Source: Acorus gramineus
Taxonomy: Eukaryota; Streptophyta; Magnoliopsida; Acorales; Acoraceae
DNA length: 64,000 nucleotides
Reading direction: 5' to 3'
Assembly: GCA_030737835.1 (NCBI GenBank)
Contig: CM060847.1
Coordinates: forward strand, 5,670,484 to 5,734,483
The notes beneath the pieces were generated by a model. The model worked only from the letters and a program-made list of their open reading frames with translations. It was not told the DNA's origin and did not search any database. The position numbers were made by a program, and so were the translations under genes. Below, piece by piece: positions 15,678 through 22,674 of this stretch; position 1 is the first letter of the stretch, and each line of letters opens with the position of its first letter.

Positions 15678-16094
15678 TGTTAGGTTGATCTACTCAAAAA
15701 TCTCTCTCTCTCTCTCTCTCTCTGTTTCACGTCCCTCGCCGTCCGACTCCTCCCTTGTATTGTATTGCGGTTTCGTATTTAGGCGAGGGATTGCCCGTGC
15801 GTGAAGCAATCATATTCGGATCCGTGATCGGGTTTTATGTTCTGACCCGTTTAATTTCCGGTTAAAGCGCAAGTCGTTTTTATTACTCTCACCTGTTGGT
15901 CAACACTAAATTTGTCTCATTTTGATTTTAAGGTTATTAGATTGCCCTACTCATTCTTCCTATTTTCAGTACCACCTTGTATTACAATATAATATTTTTT
16001 TATAAAAATTATTTAATAAACTCATCAAAAATTTAATCAATCTATTAAAATAGAACAATTCATCTATTCAAAAATGATAGTACACATCCTAAGT
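15678..16094. promoter_or_regulatory. Upstream region of RPT1 with CT microsatellite leader
   Basis: Directly upstream of the RPT1 start codon (minus strand) is a (TC)n run at about 15701-15723, read as GA repeats on the gene strand. GC-richer sequence follows to 15860, then AT-rich DNA. GA repeats are common in 5' leaders of broadly expressed plant genes. No TATA box was assigned. Confidence 0.4.
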
Positions 16095-16545
16095 TTTCGT
16101 TTGGATACAGAATATGACTTATTCTTGAGTATATAATTATTCTAACATAAGTGAGTATAAACAAGGATAAAATGATTTTGTGTTTGATTGTGTTATGAAT
16201 TATTCTTATTGGAAAACGTAATAATAAAGTTTTTGTTGTTTATATAAAATGTGAATAAAGTGTAGATAAAAATTTATAAAATGTAAAAAAATGATAATAA
16301 TTGATTTGACAAGTGATTTATAAAAGGTGATGAAAGTTAATTGACAGTGAACCCACGTATTCTTTGTGTGAAATAATTTGAAATAACTTTAATTCTAAGG
16401 ATTAATTGAAATCTATATACCATTTTATATCAATTTATCTAGGCGTACATTATCCTTGAATATTATGAGCATCCAAACACTTTATTTAACATATCCCAGT
16501 TTATTTCTAAAATCTATCCAGGATTATATTGCATCCAAACATTGC
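16095..16545. mobile_element. MITE-like element with gtttggat inverted ends
   Basis: The left end carries gtttggatacagaatatgac near 16106 and the right end carries the inverted counterpart (attatattgcatccaaac near 16519-16541). That gives imperfect terminal inverted repeats of about 18 bp around an AT-rich, non-coding body of about 440 bp. Boundaries and target duplication were not resolved, so the superfamily is open. Confidence 0.4.
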
Positions 16546-16871
16546 TAAAAGTGATAAAAATAACATGTCCGCTTCACATTATTTTAAAATGAGTTTATTA
16601 GTTTAAAATCGAATCATTAAATCAAAACTCCTATCAATATTTTTTTAATACTAAAAAGAATTAGGAGGGCGGCACCTTTTATAACTTCGCGGCAACATTC
16701 ATTGAATAAGTTTTGATTTCTTGAAGGTGTTAATGAAATATGTATCTTTGAAAAAATAAAAAATAAACTTAGAATGGATTTTTCTTAATGAAATACATAC
16801 TCACCTGGGGAGAAAAACTCAACTCAATTGGGACCGCATGAATGAATGACTGGTTGTACACATATCAGAAT

Positions 16872-17062
16872 TGTTAAAGAATCATTATTAGGATAATATT
16901 ATATCTTTATTATCATTATTGTGATATTATTAGTTATTATTAGTTTCCTAGATTTCCTAGATTCCTTATCTTGTATTTTAGGGTTTCCTCTATGTATCTA
17001 TAAATAGAGCCATTTGGCTCCTCTAATATAATAACAATAATTCCCTTTTCTTTATTCTAACA
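16872..17062 (+). repeat. 5' LTR of the chimeric retroelement
   Basis: A 191-bp LTR, TGTTAAAG to TTCTAACA. It contains a TATA box (TATAAATA, 16999-17006) and AT-rich U3-like sequence upstream. It differs from the 3' LTR at two bases close to its end (attccctttt against atttcgtttt). It is followed without a gap by the primer-binding site. Confidence 0.95.
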
Positions 17063-17074
17063 TGGTATCAGAGC
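17063..17074 (+). promoter_or_regulatory. Primer-binding site (initiator Met tRNA type)
   Basis: TGGTATCAGAGC lies immediately 3' of the 5' LTR and matches the complement of the 3' end of plant initiator methionine tRNA, the primer used by most plant LTR retrotransposons. Confidence 0.92.
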
Positions 17075-17119
17075 CTCCACCTCAAAAACCCTAGATCCAC
17101 AAAAGCTTTTCTTTCTCTT

Positions 17120-17156
17120 CCCCGCTTCGATTGAAGAGTCTTCAATCGGAGCGGGG
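17120..17156 (+). other. Long hairpin in the retroelement leader
   Basis: The arms CCCCGCTTCGATTGAAG (17120-17136) and CTTCAATCGGAGCGGGG (17140-17156) pair at 16 of 17 positions around a 3-nt loop. It sits 46 bases after the primer-binding site, where retroelement leaders often carry dimerisation or packaging structures. The function is inferred from position only. Confidence 0.7.
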
Positions 17157-17164
17157 GAGGAATT

Positions 17165-17849
17165 TTGCTCGCGAGATCTAAAAACACCCCTTGGTATCAT
17201 ACCCTCCCTCAACGTCTCGGCTGGTCTTCTCGGCTTCTTCTTCGTCAAGATGTGGACGAAGCTTTTGGAGAAGTCGGGGTTCCTCAAACAGCCCTTCACG
17301 AGACATTTAAGATAATTTTGGTGGTTCCGGGTTGGGTAGTTGTTTACCTCTTCTGGATCTGTGTTTTCCTCTTCTCCGTCCTCCTCTTTGTGGTGTACAA
17401 CTCTGTAATGAAAACAGAGAGGAATATTGAAGACCCAAAGACGTGTGTGACATTGAACGATGAAATATTATTGGATATTCAAAAGAGGAGATTTCTTTGC
17501 AGTTGGTGGGATGAGATCGATGATGATCAGCGGACGTGGAGATATAGGAGTGTGTTTCTTGTCAAAGCCAAAATAAGTTCCAGTAGACCTTCTTCCCCTC
17601 CCGATCAGATCTGTGACGGATCGGACGATGAGGCCTCAGTCGATCGGCGGCCGTCCTTTTCCTTCCTCGGCGGTGATGCTCCGCGATCTGCTAGATCCGG
17701 GCGGCGGCGATTTGTTCCTGATCCGCCTCGTGGAGAAGGTGGAGGAGGCCGTCGATGCGTTCTCGGCCCTCCGATCGAACCGATCGGCGCTCCGACGGGC
17801 GGTGATCCTCCATCTTCCGTTGAACCCATCGTCATCGTCGGTGTCGTGC
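17165..17849 (+). other. Unidentified GC-rich interior of the retroelement, possibly more captured sequence
   Basis: An open frame without ATG at its head runs through this stretch and contains a hydrophobic segment (about VVPGWVVVYLFWICVFLFSV) and an acidic stretch. From about 17613 a second plus-strand frame reads protein-like sequence ([20 protein letters not shown]) at high GC. Neither resembles a retroelement protein or a family I recognise. Given the two identified host fragments next door, these may be further captured exons, but no source can be named. Confidence 0.35.
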
Positions 17850-18063
17850 CCTTGCTCGAGATCCCGATGTCGGGGTGCACCTGCTTGAGGACCTTGAATA
17901 TGTAGATCTTGTAAGTCTCCACGCTCTTCTTCGTCCTCTTCTTCTTCTTATCGCCGGAGGTCCCCTCCTTCGCCGGGAGTCTCTTGCCGGCCTTCGGCTT
18001 CTTCTCCGCCGGAGCCTTCTCCGCCGCCGCGGGTTTCTCCTCCGCCGGCTTCTTCTCCGCCTT
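17850..18063 (-). pseudogene. Captured histone H2B fragment (antisense in the element)
   Basis: On the minus strand about 71 codons read as the N-terminal Lys/Ala/Pro-rich tail and first helix of plant histone H2B. It passes from [20 protein letters not shown] through [20 protein letters not shown] to [12 protein letters not shown], then diverges exactly where genuine H2B continues with the second helix. The start Met region and the C-terminal two thirds are missing, so it cannot make a histone. It lies antisense to the element's own transcription, so element RNA would be complementary to H2B mRNA over this segment. Confidence 0.9.
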
Positions 18064-18078
18064 CTGTTGTCAAGAAAG

Positions 18079-18366
18079 ATGAGCAATTCTGTTGTTGCTT
18101 TGCATCCAGAGGTTAACGGCAGTCTTTTACCTGCTTCCGTGATCTCTCTTTACTGCATGTACCTCTGCTACAGTGGACTCTCTAGTGAACCACGGGACTA
18201 CGAGTGCAATGGCCTCCATAAGCATTCAAAGGCTATTTCTACGGGCAGTATGACCTTGGGACTTCTTACCACTGTTCTCTCGGTTGTCTACTCTGCATTC
18301 CGTGCTGGTTCTTCTACGATTTTTTTGTTTCATCACCCAGCTCACCGTTGGACGATCCGGATCTAG
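18079..18366 (+). pseudogene. Captured SERINC (serine incorporator/TMS family) fragment
   Basis: In sense orientation an ATG at 18079 opens a 95-codon frame. Its first ~80 residues are recognisable SERINC sequence (VNGSLLPASVISLYCMYLCY, then SEPRDYECNGLHKHSKA, then GLLTTVLSVVYSAFRAGSST). These are two transmembrane segments and the connecting loop from the middle to C-terminal part of this multi-pass membrane family. Similarity stops near 18318 and the frame ends at 18366. The segment is continuous with no intron, which fits capture from spliced RNA, although the donor's exon structure was not checked. Not a functional SERINC. Confidence 0.88.
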
Positions 18367-18414
18367 GCGAGGACGGGACGGCGTCTTCCTCTTACGCCTC
18401 TGAAAGAAGGATTT

Positions 18415-19245
18415 GAAGTGTTGTGCCCTTGCCGTCGTCGTTGCCGTCGTGCCCTTGCCGTCGCTGTTGTCGTCGTGCCCTTGCCGTCGTGCCCTTGCCG
18501 TCGCCGTCGTGCCCTTGCCGTCGTGCCCTTGCCGTCGTCGTTGCCGTCGTGCCCTTGCCGTCGCCGTCGTGCCCTTGCCGTCGCTGTTGTCGTCGTGCCC
18601 TTGCCGTCGCCGTCGTGCCCTTGCCGTCGTTGTCGCCGTCGTGCCCTTGCCGTCGCCGTCGTGCCCTTGTCGTCGCTGTCGTGCCCTTGCCGTCGCCGTC
18701 GTGCCCTTGCCGTCGCTGTCGTGCCCTTGCCGTCGCTGTCTTGCCGTTGCCGTCGTCGTCGCCGTCGTGCCCTTGCCGTCGCTGTTGTCGTCGTGCCCTT
18801 GCCGTCGCTGTTGTCGTCGTGCCCTTGCCGTCGTGCCCTTGCCGTCGTCGTCGTGCCCTTGCCGTCGCTGTTGCCGTCGTGCCCTTGCCGTCGCTGTTGT
18901 CGTCGTGCCCTTGCCGTCGTGCCCTTGCTGTTGCCGTCGTGCCCTTGCCGTCGCTGTTGTCGTCGTGCCCTTGCCGTCGTGCCCTTGCCGCCGCTGTTGT
19001 CGTCGTGCCCTTGCCGTCGTGCCCTTGCCGTCGTCGTCGTGCCCTTGCCGTCGTGCCCTTCCCAGTCGCTGTTGCCGTCGTGCTCTTGCCGTCGTCGTCG
19101 TGCCCTTTGCCGTCGTCGTCGCCGTCGTGCCCTTGCCGTCGCCGTCGTGCCCTTGCCGTCGCTGTTGTCGTCGTGCCCTTGCCGTCGCCGTCGTGCCCTT
19201 TGCCGTCGTCGTCGCCGTCGTGCCCTTGCCGTCGCTGTTGCACCC
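18415..19245 (+). repeat. GC-rich minisatellite inside the retroelement
   Basis: About 830 bp of imperfect tandem repeats built from gcccttgccgtcg with variable gtcgt, gctgttgtc and ccgtc spacers. Because the unit is trinucleotide-like and free of stop codons, several frames on both strands stay open at once (Ala/Val/Pro/Cys/Arg-rich on plus, Lys/Gly/Thr/Ala/Arg-rich on minus). These are not genes. The core gtcgtgcccttg also occurs once at 17843-17854, at the edge of the H2B fragment, which may be where the array was seeded. Confidence 0.93.
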
Positions 19246-19317
19246 CTGCCGCACCTGCACGTGCTGTCCCTCTGCCGCCTTCTCATTCTTGTGCAAACTC
19301 TAAGGGTTCTACCTTTC

Positions 19318-19333
19318 AGAGTTTGGGAGGGGG
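19318..19333 (+). promoter_or_regulatory. Polypurine tract
   Basis: agagtttgggaggggg directly precedes the 3' LTR, the position of the plus-strand primer in LTR elements. Confidence 0.8.
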
Positions 19334-19524
19334 TGTTAAAGAATCATTATTAGGATAATATTATATCTTTATTATCATTATTGTGATATTATTAGTTATT
19401 ATTAGTTTCCTAGATTTCCTAGATTCCTTATCTTGTATTTTAGGGTTTCCTCTATGTATCTATAAATAGAGCCATTTGGCTCCTCTAATATAATAACAAT
19501 AATTTCGTTTTCTTTATTCTAACA
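19334..19524 (+). repeat. 3' LTR of the chimeric retroelement
   Basis: A 191-bp LTR almost identical to 16872-17062. Its TATA box is at 19461-19468, and it could drive transcription outward toward the JAZ 3' flank. It is followed by the target duplication AGAAT. Confidence 0.95.
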
Positions 19525-19529
19525 AGAAT

Positions 19530-19662
19530 AAATATAATGTATATAAATGATTGTCATACAGATCAAGCAATTACTCAAACCACCAATGGTTGTACACATC
19601 AGAATAAATATAATATATATAAATGATTGTCATACAGATCAAGCAATTACTCAAACCACCAA
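19530..19662. repeat. Tandem duplication interrupted by the retroelement
   Basis: A genomic unit of about 75-77 bp (ggttgtacacat...aatataa...ctcaaaccaccaa) is present twice. One copy is intact at about 19588-19662. The other is split: its head lies at about 16853-16871 and its tail at 19525-19587, with the LTR element between. The duplication therefore predates the insertion. Confidence 0.8.
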
Positions 19663-20013
19663 CTCTTATCAGAAATTCAGATTATATGAGTCCACAATCA
19701 CCCAGGAATTGAATTTATGGCTGGATCATCGGACATTTGCATCAAAACACGCCATGTAGTCATGGAGTCAACAATAAAATAGAAAATGTAACAAGGTGTA
19801 ACACAATCAATGTCCTCCTGAAGGAGTTGCCATACTTTTCCACTAGCAGTCTATGGAAGTCAGCAAAGTCTTGGTATTACAAAACACACACTATATGCAT
19901 CATTCAGTTTTAGATAATGGATGGAACAACAACAACAACAATGAGCATAGGTTAAGAACAAGCAATAACCGTGGATTACAAGTTCATTAATTATCACACG
20001 CTAGTAATTTACT

Positions 20014-22674
20014 TCATGTAATGCGGGCAGTGACAGCAGGAACAAATTCCTCATGGGGTTTGGCAGTCTCAGAGAAGCAGCTCACTGGAGTAGAAGCATC
20101 ACCACTCAAGCCGCACTCCATGTCATCTGTCACTTTCGATGGAGAGTATGGAGCTTTGCTCACCAATCTACAGACCAAAGGATTGTTAGTCATAGCTCTT
20201 GATACTAGTTCAGAATTCAGGAATAATTCGACAAAGGCAAAGTTCACGATTCAGCATACTTCTGACATAGTTCTACAAAAACTAAGAAAAAAAAATAGAC
20301 ATGCAAAATCTCAATCGAATCCACAATCTCCTGTGGATACCATAACACAACATCACGAGTTCAAGTCTAACAATTGATGCATAATTACAGTAACTCATGA
20401 ATCTAGTAGTGGGTGTCAGATTTTGAAGGGGAGAGGTGAGAAAAGGGCTTTAGATTGTCTAGGATTACTTAATTTTACTTTTTGGTCTTAATTTTGTTTC
20501 ACGTTTAAAATATGTATTACATGTTTAATATGCATTTAATTCGTTTATACACCAATCAATTATTAAGGTACATATTATTGAATTGGACACAATTTAAATG
20601 GGTATTAATTTTTCAACAAAAAGAGTGCATTTTTCTTTTAGCAAATTAATCAATAATAATTTGAAGTGTTATGTGAGGTGGGTCATAGGAGAGAGTTCAT
20701 GCACATGCAGTCAGACAACATGTTCTCCAGTAGAATTGGTGGCATGTTAAGCTCTTGATAATCTGATAAATTCAGGCTTACATTGAGTTGGATCCGGAAC
20801 TTCCTGGTCTGAGCATTTATACATGTTTGTGTTTGTGTACATGTATAGGTTAAAGGGCTCTAGAGTGTATCATATCGACCAACAATTTAGTGACAGGACT
20901 ATTTTTTTTTAAAAATAAAATAAATGCACAATGATATGGAGATACAAATGGATGACAGAAAGAGGCCATGAGTTATGGTAGACATTTAAACTTGAAACAC
21001 ATCTCAAAAAACAGATTTGAAATGTCCCTCATTAACAAAGTATTCTCTTGGAGCACAAACAAATACATATGATGCAGGCTTTCAAGATTTAAAATGTACA
21101 TTTCAGAATCTCATCTTCCAAATAAAATGAAGAAATGAAAGCACTCAGAAACTTGCACCACAGCAAAGATCATGGAACATTACACTTTAGTTGCACCTTT
21201 AAATTACAATAATTGAGTTCACCCATATATGTGAGATGATTTGAACAAACAGATACAGTGATTAACAAATTTAAGATATGATCCCATTCAATCAGGAAGA
21301 CTGCTTCCGGGGTAAATTGGAAAGTCAATCCACAAAATGACATGAGATCACTTGAAAACATTCATGTCAAAACAAAGAATACATACAAGCATAATTGAAA
21401 AAATAATTTTGCATCGATAATTTGTAACAGAATTCATTGTCCAATCTTAATCGACATCCATCTCACCTATGAAATGAATAACTTAACAATCACATAAGCA
21501 TAATAATACACCAATAAGGAATCAAAATGCCAGTTATTTTATTGTTAGTTAAAGAAAAAATTACCCCCAGTTGACACACTGCTTGTATTCTATGTTTTTC
21601 TTCTTTGATATAAAAAAAATGCGTAAAATTAGTTAAATTGACAAACAAAAAGTCAATGGAGCAGAAGTACCTGTCACGACGCTTCTCCAAGAAACGCTGA
21701 AGGGAGTGCCTCCTGGCAACAGGAAGTTCTGCAAAGATAAAATAAAAAGAATCCAAGTATCGAGCAGATCGAATCAAACCAATCATTTCCAAATAATTGC
21801 ACATTATGAGCAAGTTTGCGCTTCAGAAACATCTGTTTACTTAAAAAGAAAAAAAAAAAGCCTTACCAGCTTGGAGCTTGCACAGGGGACTAGGATGTGG
21901 GACAGGTGAGTTCTGTGGGGCAGCAGGGGACACCACTGCTGCTGTAGAGCTCTGCAATGATGGAGATCTAGTGAGCACCGGTACTTCCACCACTGTAGCC
22001 ACTGTCGGAGCCATTGCGGGAGATGGACCCGCTTTTGCCATGACCGGGTTCTTAGCATTTGCAGCCGACACGGATGCAGCTGTTGCTGCTGCTATGAACA
22101 TAATTGCCTGGGCCTGTTCGCAATCGCAAACAATATATACACGTATATAAAATAAATAACGAGCATTAGTGCATTCAGACGGTGAGAGGGAAAGAAAGGA
22201 GGTACCTTCTCTTGGGGGACAGCGTTGTAGACATGGACAGACCCGCCATAGAAGATTGTGAGCTGTTGCGGGGGAACCGAAGATGGTGCCGAGGAGATCG
22301 CGTTAGGCCTACAACAATCAATAACACACAAAACAAAACAAAAAATCAATAACACACAAAAAAAAACAAGAATTAAAGGTATGTTTTTTTTTTTTTTCGC
22401 TTGGTGAATTAAAGAAAGGTATGTTCAGAGTGACGGGTTGTAATTGTGATTGTTCTAACGCCACTAGAAACCCATCTGTGACCAGATGGCGGGAGGGAAG
22501 CAAAGCAAAAATGAAGGGGGATAAATTTCTTCTGATTTCTTGATTGTTCGTCTAATTAAAGAGAGAGGATTGAAAGGGGAGGAGAAAGCATATATAATAC
22601 CTGAGGGCTTTGTCAGCATTCTCTTCTTCCGCGTCTTGTTGTTGCCTGCCCCCTATCTTTCCCATCAAATCCAT
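20014..22674 (-). CDS. JAZ: Jasmonate ZIM-domain (JAZ/TIFY) repressor
   Basis: Nuclear repressor that binds MYC-type factors and is degraded with COI1 when jasmonoyl-Ile accumulates. Five minus-strand exons: 22601-22674, 22206-22308, 21867-22113, 21671-21728, 20014-20167, giving 211 aa. The ZIM motif TIFYGG is at residues 42-47 in LTIFYGGSVHVYNAVPQEK. The Jas motif starts at residue 142 (ELPVARRHSLQRFLEKRRDR, continuing LVSKAPY) and includes the LPxARR degron. The N terminus is short (about 40 residues before TIFY) and no EAR motif is seen, so repression would need NINJA bound at the ZIM domain. The last intron (1503 bp) splits the Jas motif after KRRDR, the conserved Jas intron. Which JAZ number it corresponds to is uncertain. 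Confidence 0.93.

Follow-up and report, generated by a model that had tools for sequence, protein, structure and literature searches.

How does a short retrotransposon without genes of its own come to hold pieces of five unlinked host genes, four in sense and one in antisense? The question is raised by a 2653-bp long terminal repeat (LTR) element at positions 16872–19524 of a 64,000-nucleotide stretch of the Acorus gramineus genome (the window). The element is labelled WIN here; other copies of its family carry L numbers, and contigs of the A. gramineus assembly carry C numbers. Our analysis makes it very probable that WIN belongs, as a young copy, to a non-autonomous A. gramineus family of Copia type, resembling terminal-repeat retrotransposons in miniature (TRIMs) and maize Bs1, that captures host mRNA by template switching. 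The family, rather than the WIN copy alone, is the main finding.

The framework of WIN is that of an LTR retrotransposon, with paired LTRs, primer binding site (PBS), polypurine tract and short target site duplication (TSD) all present. The 5′ LTR (16872–17062, plus strand, TGTTAA...CTAACA) and the 3′ LTR (19334–19524, plus strand) are each 191 bp long, with one transition and one transversion between them. The PBS TGGTATCAGAGCC follows directly after the 5′ LTR (17063–17075, plus strand); it is the sole match in the window allowing at most one mismatch (shuffles, mean 0.08), and its first 11 bases are identical across 22 of 22 aligned leaders. We take TGGTATCAGAGCC to be the complement of initiator tRNA-Met, a type of primer site common in Copia, and this assigns WIN a Copia-type primer site, a feature that alone is no proof of the superfamily. 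A conserved 3′ end (19258–19333, plus strand) includes the polypurine tract GGGAGGGGG at 19325–19333, just before the 3′ LTR. Copies of the duplicated AGAAT flank the element at 16867–16871 and 19525–19529, and the flanks joined without WIN match the next tandem unit (19587–19656, plus strand), which serves as a paralogous empty site, over 72 aligned columns with one mismatch, one 2-bp gap and a single AGAAT. The insertion site itself is a direct repeat of 62 bp spaced at 76 bp (19525–19662), with WIN in the first unit and the empty site as the second. No gag-pol domain was found in the six frames scanned of the 27 listed for WIN, and no pol was seen. The 191-bp LTRs, 5-bp duplication, primer site and purine tract that an earlier note on this DNA had read from the letters could all be located, its description of an interior lacking retroviral-type genes agrees with the scanned frames, and WIN is supported as a young, non-autonomous LTR element bearing captured host gene pieces.

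The interior of WIN is a mosaic whose donors lie on C10, C4, C5, C11 and C3, with 95–100% identity over the aligned blocks; several unlinked host gene fragments thus stand between its LTRs, as in Bs1. Behind the leader lies a sense fragment of a YSL/OPT metal transporter (17193–17302, plus strand; 99% to C10:11528726-11528838), followed by a sense fragment of an orphan gene (17298–17565, plus strand; 97–100% to two blocks of C4:9346270-9346576). The protein of the latter donor (C4:9346270 region, L031) has as its single match with E <= 0.001 the A. gramineus record QJS04_geneDACA007930, 100% identical over 73%; a short gap within the WIN piece relative to this donor was scored as a deletion, not an intron. 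A 23-bp filler (17566–17588) leads to a sense fragment of a PDDEXK_6/DUF506 gene (17589–17806, plus strand; 95% to C5:21945671-21945887), and a second filler with a soft right edge (17807–17829) leads to a detached unit of the family minisatellite (17830–17855, plus strand). The protein of the C5 donor scores highest with Acorus calamus, while A. gramineus record P0005 covers 58% of it at 92%. The histone H2B fragment, antisense to the LTRs (17850–18060, minus strand), overlaps this unit by CCTTGC and is 98.6% identical to both C11:14251065-14251278 and C11:14245026-14245239; its Pfam score of 22.7 is below the curated cutoff of 26.4, and its identification relies instead on a PDB match of 8.8e-27 together with these donor genes. 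An 8-bp filler (18061–18068) separates H2B from a sense SERINC fragment (18069–18346, plus strand), which joins three exon pieces of its donor, C3:21562819-21563053 (97%) and two further upstream. A tail segment common to L030 and, in part, L014 (18347–18397, plus strand) and a GC-rich, family-typical minisatellite with periods of 20 and 26 (18423–19241, plus strand) complete the interior. A predicted 256-codon open frame, with an ATG-started part of 165 codons (17408–17902, plus strand), runs from the orphan gene into part of DUF506. The earlier note had called antisense H2B at 17850–18063, a call that holds with a minimally changed end, and the donor H2B and SERINC genes that it proposed to seek in the same genome were found on C11 and C3. 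Its SERINC piece is indeed sense but extends further than the 18079–18318 it gave, and its count of at least two host genes was too low, having missed YSL, the orphan gene and PDDEXK_6/DUF506.

Two gaps of ~0.3 and 1.1 kb, with GT and AG borders read from the letters, interrupt the SERINC donor within the captured stretch, and both are absent from WIN. The SERINC piece, lacking these two GT-AG introns, therefore derives from spliced mRNA, and the possibility that the interior would match ordinary genes with introns in place did not hold. Each of the H2B, YSL and DUF506 pieces aligns to its donor as a single block; like the orphan-gene piece they are uninformative on splicing, so that within WIN the absence of introns concerns SERINC only. 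Similar losses are found in other copies, where they rest on coordinates, splice letters having been read for SERINC alone. Five donor pieces of BI-1 within C4:28386088-28388538 are joined in L011, and two C10 loci are split at the same points. A 674-bp gap in the HSP70 donor (C3:16433653-16434328) is absent from the antisense cargo, the same split recurring at C6:9585378-9586887; a paralogue on C32 (C32:13374675, 72%) has no gap. Antisense H2A lacks a 73-bp gap (C2:32296610-32296684) that is placed alike in six other places, and CASP lacks two gaps of C6:10587701-10589849, 1491 and 348 bp long, a paralogue on C3 being split at the same points. A further gap in the CASP cargo of L016, 63 bp that two sister copies retain, was rejected as an intron, since its letters are coding and without splice signals; L016 has a small deletion here. 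That cargo without introns is found in both orientations, with antisense HSP70 and H2A judged by coordinates, points to mature mRNA as the template.

Capture of this kind extends well beyond WIN. A host gene was recognised in nine copies (WIN, L009, L011, L014, L015, L016, L024, L026 and L030) by a Pfam match above cutoff, a donor match or a 99.6% sister, and in L019 and L061 by DNA match alone; donor searches covered the cargos of WIN, L009, L011 and L016. By Pfam, L009 carries HSP70 and H2A, both antisense, L011 BI-1 in sense, L014 an antisense I29 cysteine-protease propeptide, L015 RNA 3′-phosphate cyclase in sense with H2A antisense, L016 CASP in sense with an antisense EF-hand, L026 an antisense EF-hand, and L030 an antisense EF-hand with SERINC in sense. 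L024 repeats the L009 cargo, as does C11:983577 over q213-1541 of 1541. By DNA match, L019 holds 134 bp of antisense DUF506, 96% identical to the donor and with ends unlike those in WIN, and L061 holds 77 bp of antisense RNA cyclase, 96% identical to L015; the frames of L019, L061, L065 and L067 gave no Pfam match above cutoff. When each identified module is counted once per orientation, seven are sense (YSL, the orphan gene, DUF506, SERINC, BI-1, cyclase and CASP) and seven antisense (H2B, H2A, HSP70, cysteine protease, EF-hand, DUF506 and cyclase), DUF506 and RNA cyclase occurring in opposite orientations in different copies. The same modules are found with new partners in different copies, which suggests continued exchange between copies. 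Sister copies with the same cargo occupy different loci, and copies therefore moved after capture. A reading of L053 by eye as antisense TFIIA was rejected, having no Pfam support and a best PDB match (E 0.6) to another protein. Open frames that perhaps belong to another mobile element were seen in L050 and, as a DUF7746 frame downstream of the leader, at L046:539-1456. At C3:19105351-19105524, two adjacent stretches match the L009 cargo flanking HSP70 in swapped order (q1477-1541, q502-611).

The extent of the family was gauged with a 25-base pattern across the LTR end and PBS, allowing up to two mismatches, which gave 484 matches (260 + 224) and none in the control; these counts are not full annotations and include relatives with quite different LTRs, such as L065 at 77%. 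Our sample comprises 48 copies, 38 plus 10, the ten being hand-picked from 100 listed places (C1 to C5 only) of the 484; L030 entered through its SERINC match and the others through LTR, leader or LTR/PBS junction. Neither L010a nor L010ab, which are alternative readings of a locus with three LTRs in a row (L010:1001-4295), is among the 48, and the outer readings at this locus do not enter the counts. Also excluded are L022 and L023, for which the stretch retrieved contains no second LTR. The 23 copies scored for LTRs and TSD further omit L010b and any copy showing a single LTR. The leader, minisatellite and 3′ end are common across copies, at least seven CCCTTG units occurring in 38 of 48 interiors (33/38 + 5/10), so that the minisatellite is a family feature. 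By contrast with these common parts, 19 of the 48 copies (14/38 + 5/10) hold at least 300 bp of interior common to at most two other sampled copies, sharing being judged among 38 copies for the first set and against all 48 for the ten; five of the 19 (L044, L046, L050, L063 and L070) are open-ended, with no identified host gene, and here flanking or nested DNA is possible. Copy length ranges from 788 to 3195 bp (23 copies) and from 1.5 to 3.2 kb where cargo was identified, and 12 of the 23 copies have an exact 5-bp TSD. Of further copies with the same junctions, which the earlier note had suggested seeking, only part was found: the SERINC and tail junction is present again in L030, but the whole WIN mosaic was met once among 40 scored of 454 first-look candidates. 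LTR divergence is 0.044 in L030 vs 0.0105 in WIN. At the rate used for rice (1.3e-8 per site per year), L030, the older copy, would be ~1.7 and WIN ~0.4 million years old, the error being wide for LTRs of 191 bp.

The junctions of WIN bear on how the pieces were joined. Between leader and SERINC there are six, three with overlaps (GG, ACGAG and CCTTGC) and three with fillers (23, ~23 and 8 bp). Compared with random joins of the same pieces, the overlaps have P values of 0.16, 0.0048 and 0.0034, respectively, so that two of the three clean-overlap junctions show microhomology, of 5 and 6 bp. In the mechanism that we favour, transposition proteins would be supplied by an autonomous element and a leader hairpin would aid packaging. 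During reverse transcription the enzyme would quit the element RNA, copy stretches of co-packaged host mRNA and go back, often at microhomology of a few bases. A minus-strand switch from element RNA to mRNA would yield sense cargo, while antisense cargo would require a strand-inverting switch, either of plus-strand synthesis onto mRNA or of minus-strand synthesis onto free cDNA. Because the LTR, primer site, leader and purine tract remain in place, the chimaera would stay mobile.

Several observations weigh against template switching in a mobile family. Half of the WIN junctions are 8–23-bp fillers with no clean overlap, the 2-bp leader/YSL overlap is at chance level, and simple minus-strand switching does not account for antisense cargo. 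Among sampled copies, 29 of 48 are without any 300-bp rare interior stretch, and 11 of 23 are without an exact 5-bp TSD, some copies therefore having been altered after insertion. Movement rests on sequence comparison of copies, and an autonomous partner did not come to light: the two open copies that lack CCCTTG units, L063 and L070, were considered for this role and rejected, since no gag-pol-like frame was seen by eye in 3 kb of either.

Fillers and mixed orientation are also common in the products of DNA repair, and this favours a capture at the DNA level through gap repair, ectopic recombination or nested genomic insertion, as proposed for Pack-MULEs and Helitrons. The one-block matches of H2B, YSL and DUF506 cannot discriminate here. 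SERINC without its two GT-AG introns does, as do BI-1, HSP70, H2A and CASP, which by coordinates lack, in both orientations, gaps placed alike in donors and paralogues; for these five genes capture at the DNA level is already largely refuted, and as a general account we regard it as very improbable. Intron-free pieces in either orientation would equally result if another retrotransposon, for example a long interspersed nuclear element, first made processed retrocopies that the LTR elements then took up as DNA, and the ungapped HSP70 paralogue at C32:13374675 is of the expected kind, though at 72% identity. However, the best donors of SERINC, BI-1 and HSP70 are gapped genes at 97–99%, and at the intron-free places of at least 99% identity (C66:214029 and C32:5856516; C11:983577 and C6:20819804) the matches extend into neighbouring cargo, so that these places look like family copies. 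Two rare steps would moreover be needed per piece, and we consider this route very improbable. That the entire WIN cargo was met once among the scored candidates could hint at an assembly artefact joining unrelated reads, but the paired LTRs, TSD and empty site, the return of the SERINC and tail junction in L030 and the sister copies of other cargos leave this a negligible chance. Likewise, the worry that WIN might be a unique assembly join without LTR-bounded copies elsewhere is removed by its LTR-bounded relatives.

Whether the antisense pieces act on their host is a separate matter. RNA from the 5′ LTR would be antisense to H2B and might seed small RNAs against histone genes; H2B, H2A and HSP70 all lie antisense to the LTR, and DUF506 and RNA cyclase, with their opposite orientations across copies, could give double-stranded RNA. 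For some LTR-captured rice and sorghum genes, small-RNA analysis suggested negative regulation (PMC3726574). The equal numbers of sense and antisense modules, however, give no sign of selection for antisense, and we think such silencing unlikely. Returning to template switching, a wider form of it is that one LTR family habitually makes bidirectional mosaics of mature mRNA, switching in both phases of strand synthesis so that one gene enters some copies in sense and others in antisense, with the hairpin keeping chimaeras packageable and with an evolving pool of modules that may form double-stranded RNA against host genes; we offer this tentatively, as a possibility somewhat doubtful in its full extent.

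The leader (17063–17194, plus strand) is 97–98% identical in L030 and L041-L058 and ~80% identical in L009-type copies. It contains a candidate hairpin of 14 pairs (17120–17156, plus strand), a possible packaging or dimerisation signal. Across the family 97.7% of its cells are paired, and one pair changes from G-C to A-U in 6 of 22 sequences, the only two-sided change. Its pair-change number is reached by 458 of 500 shuffles and its pair-type number by 478 of 500, while its covariation score and paired cells are above all 500, a control that related sequences can pass structure-free; support across the family is modest. In 16 of 18 of L041-L058, the LTR beside the leader is 89–92% identical to the WIN LTR and the leader ~98%, marking a second LTR subfamily, whereas the LTRs of L053 and L057 are 98% identical to the WIN LTR.

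Different host gene fragments among copies of one family are known from Pack-MULEs and gene-capturing Helitrons, which are DNA transposons marked by terminal inverted repeats with a 9-bp TSD or by Helitron ends. The Acorus copies likewise bear different host gene fragments, but they are not DNA transposons: WIN has direct LTRs and a 5-bp TSD, and no inverted repeat of at least 18 bp was found within 16000–20500. Pack-MULEs are described as holding exons and introns, as opposed to exon-only LTR captures (PMC4717578). Soybean GmaRetroS15-type TRIMs, of which 30 gene-carrying elements of 1.2–1.4 kb fall in 7 of 289 subfamilies, are similar in being short LTR elements without genes of their own, with a 5-bp TSD and exon-only fragments of up to three genes, and in having moved after capture (PMC4717578). 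The Acorus elements differ from them in forming one family with many cargos and a minisatellite, in packing five genes into a single copy and in measuring 1.5–3.2 kb where cargo was identified; WIN at 2653 bp and the range across the 23 copies depart from the size of gene-carrying TRIMs. Maize Bs1 is similarly an LTR element with host gene segments, but according to a review it is one element with one set of three (PMC13317346), whereas Acorus cargo varies by copy and lies in both orientations. Many genes have also been taken by LTR elements in rice and sorghum, as surveyed from annotated genes inside elements in a paper whose main text is without the words orientation, antisense and intron (PMC3726574). 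Triticeae LTR chimaeras are mosaics too, attributed to abnormal template switching, but fuse two retroelements and not host mRNAs (PMC1950507). The A. gramineus genome papers give repeat totals, and their retrotransposon passages are without captured genes (PMC10281966, PMC10282084). No description of an Acorus capture family was found among the listed titles and abstract starts of open-licence papers, which does not show that none exists.

Gene pickup by plant LTR elements has so far been mostly inferred from few elements such as Bs1. The Acorus family is young and numerous and belongs to the lineage sister to the remaining monocots. Its cargo varies from copy to copy and its donors persist in the genome with few changes, so that junctions, strand and state of splicing can be read off directly. 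Antisense HSP70 and H2A, intron-free by coordinates, are an argument for inverted copying of mature mRNA. The family also adds a retrotransposon route to exon shuffling, Pack-MULE-like in style, and resembles a mobile library in which gene fragments are reshuffled.

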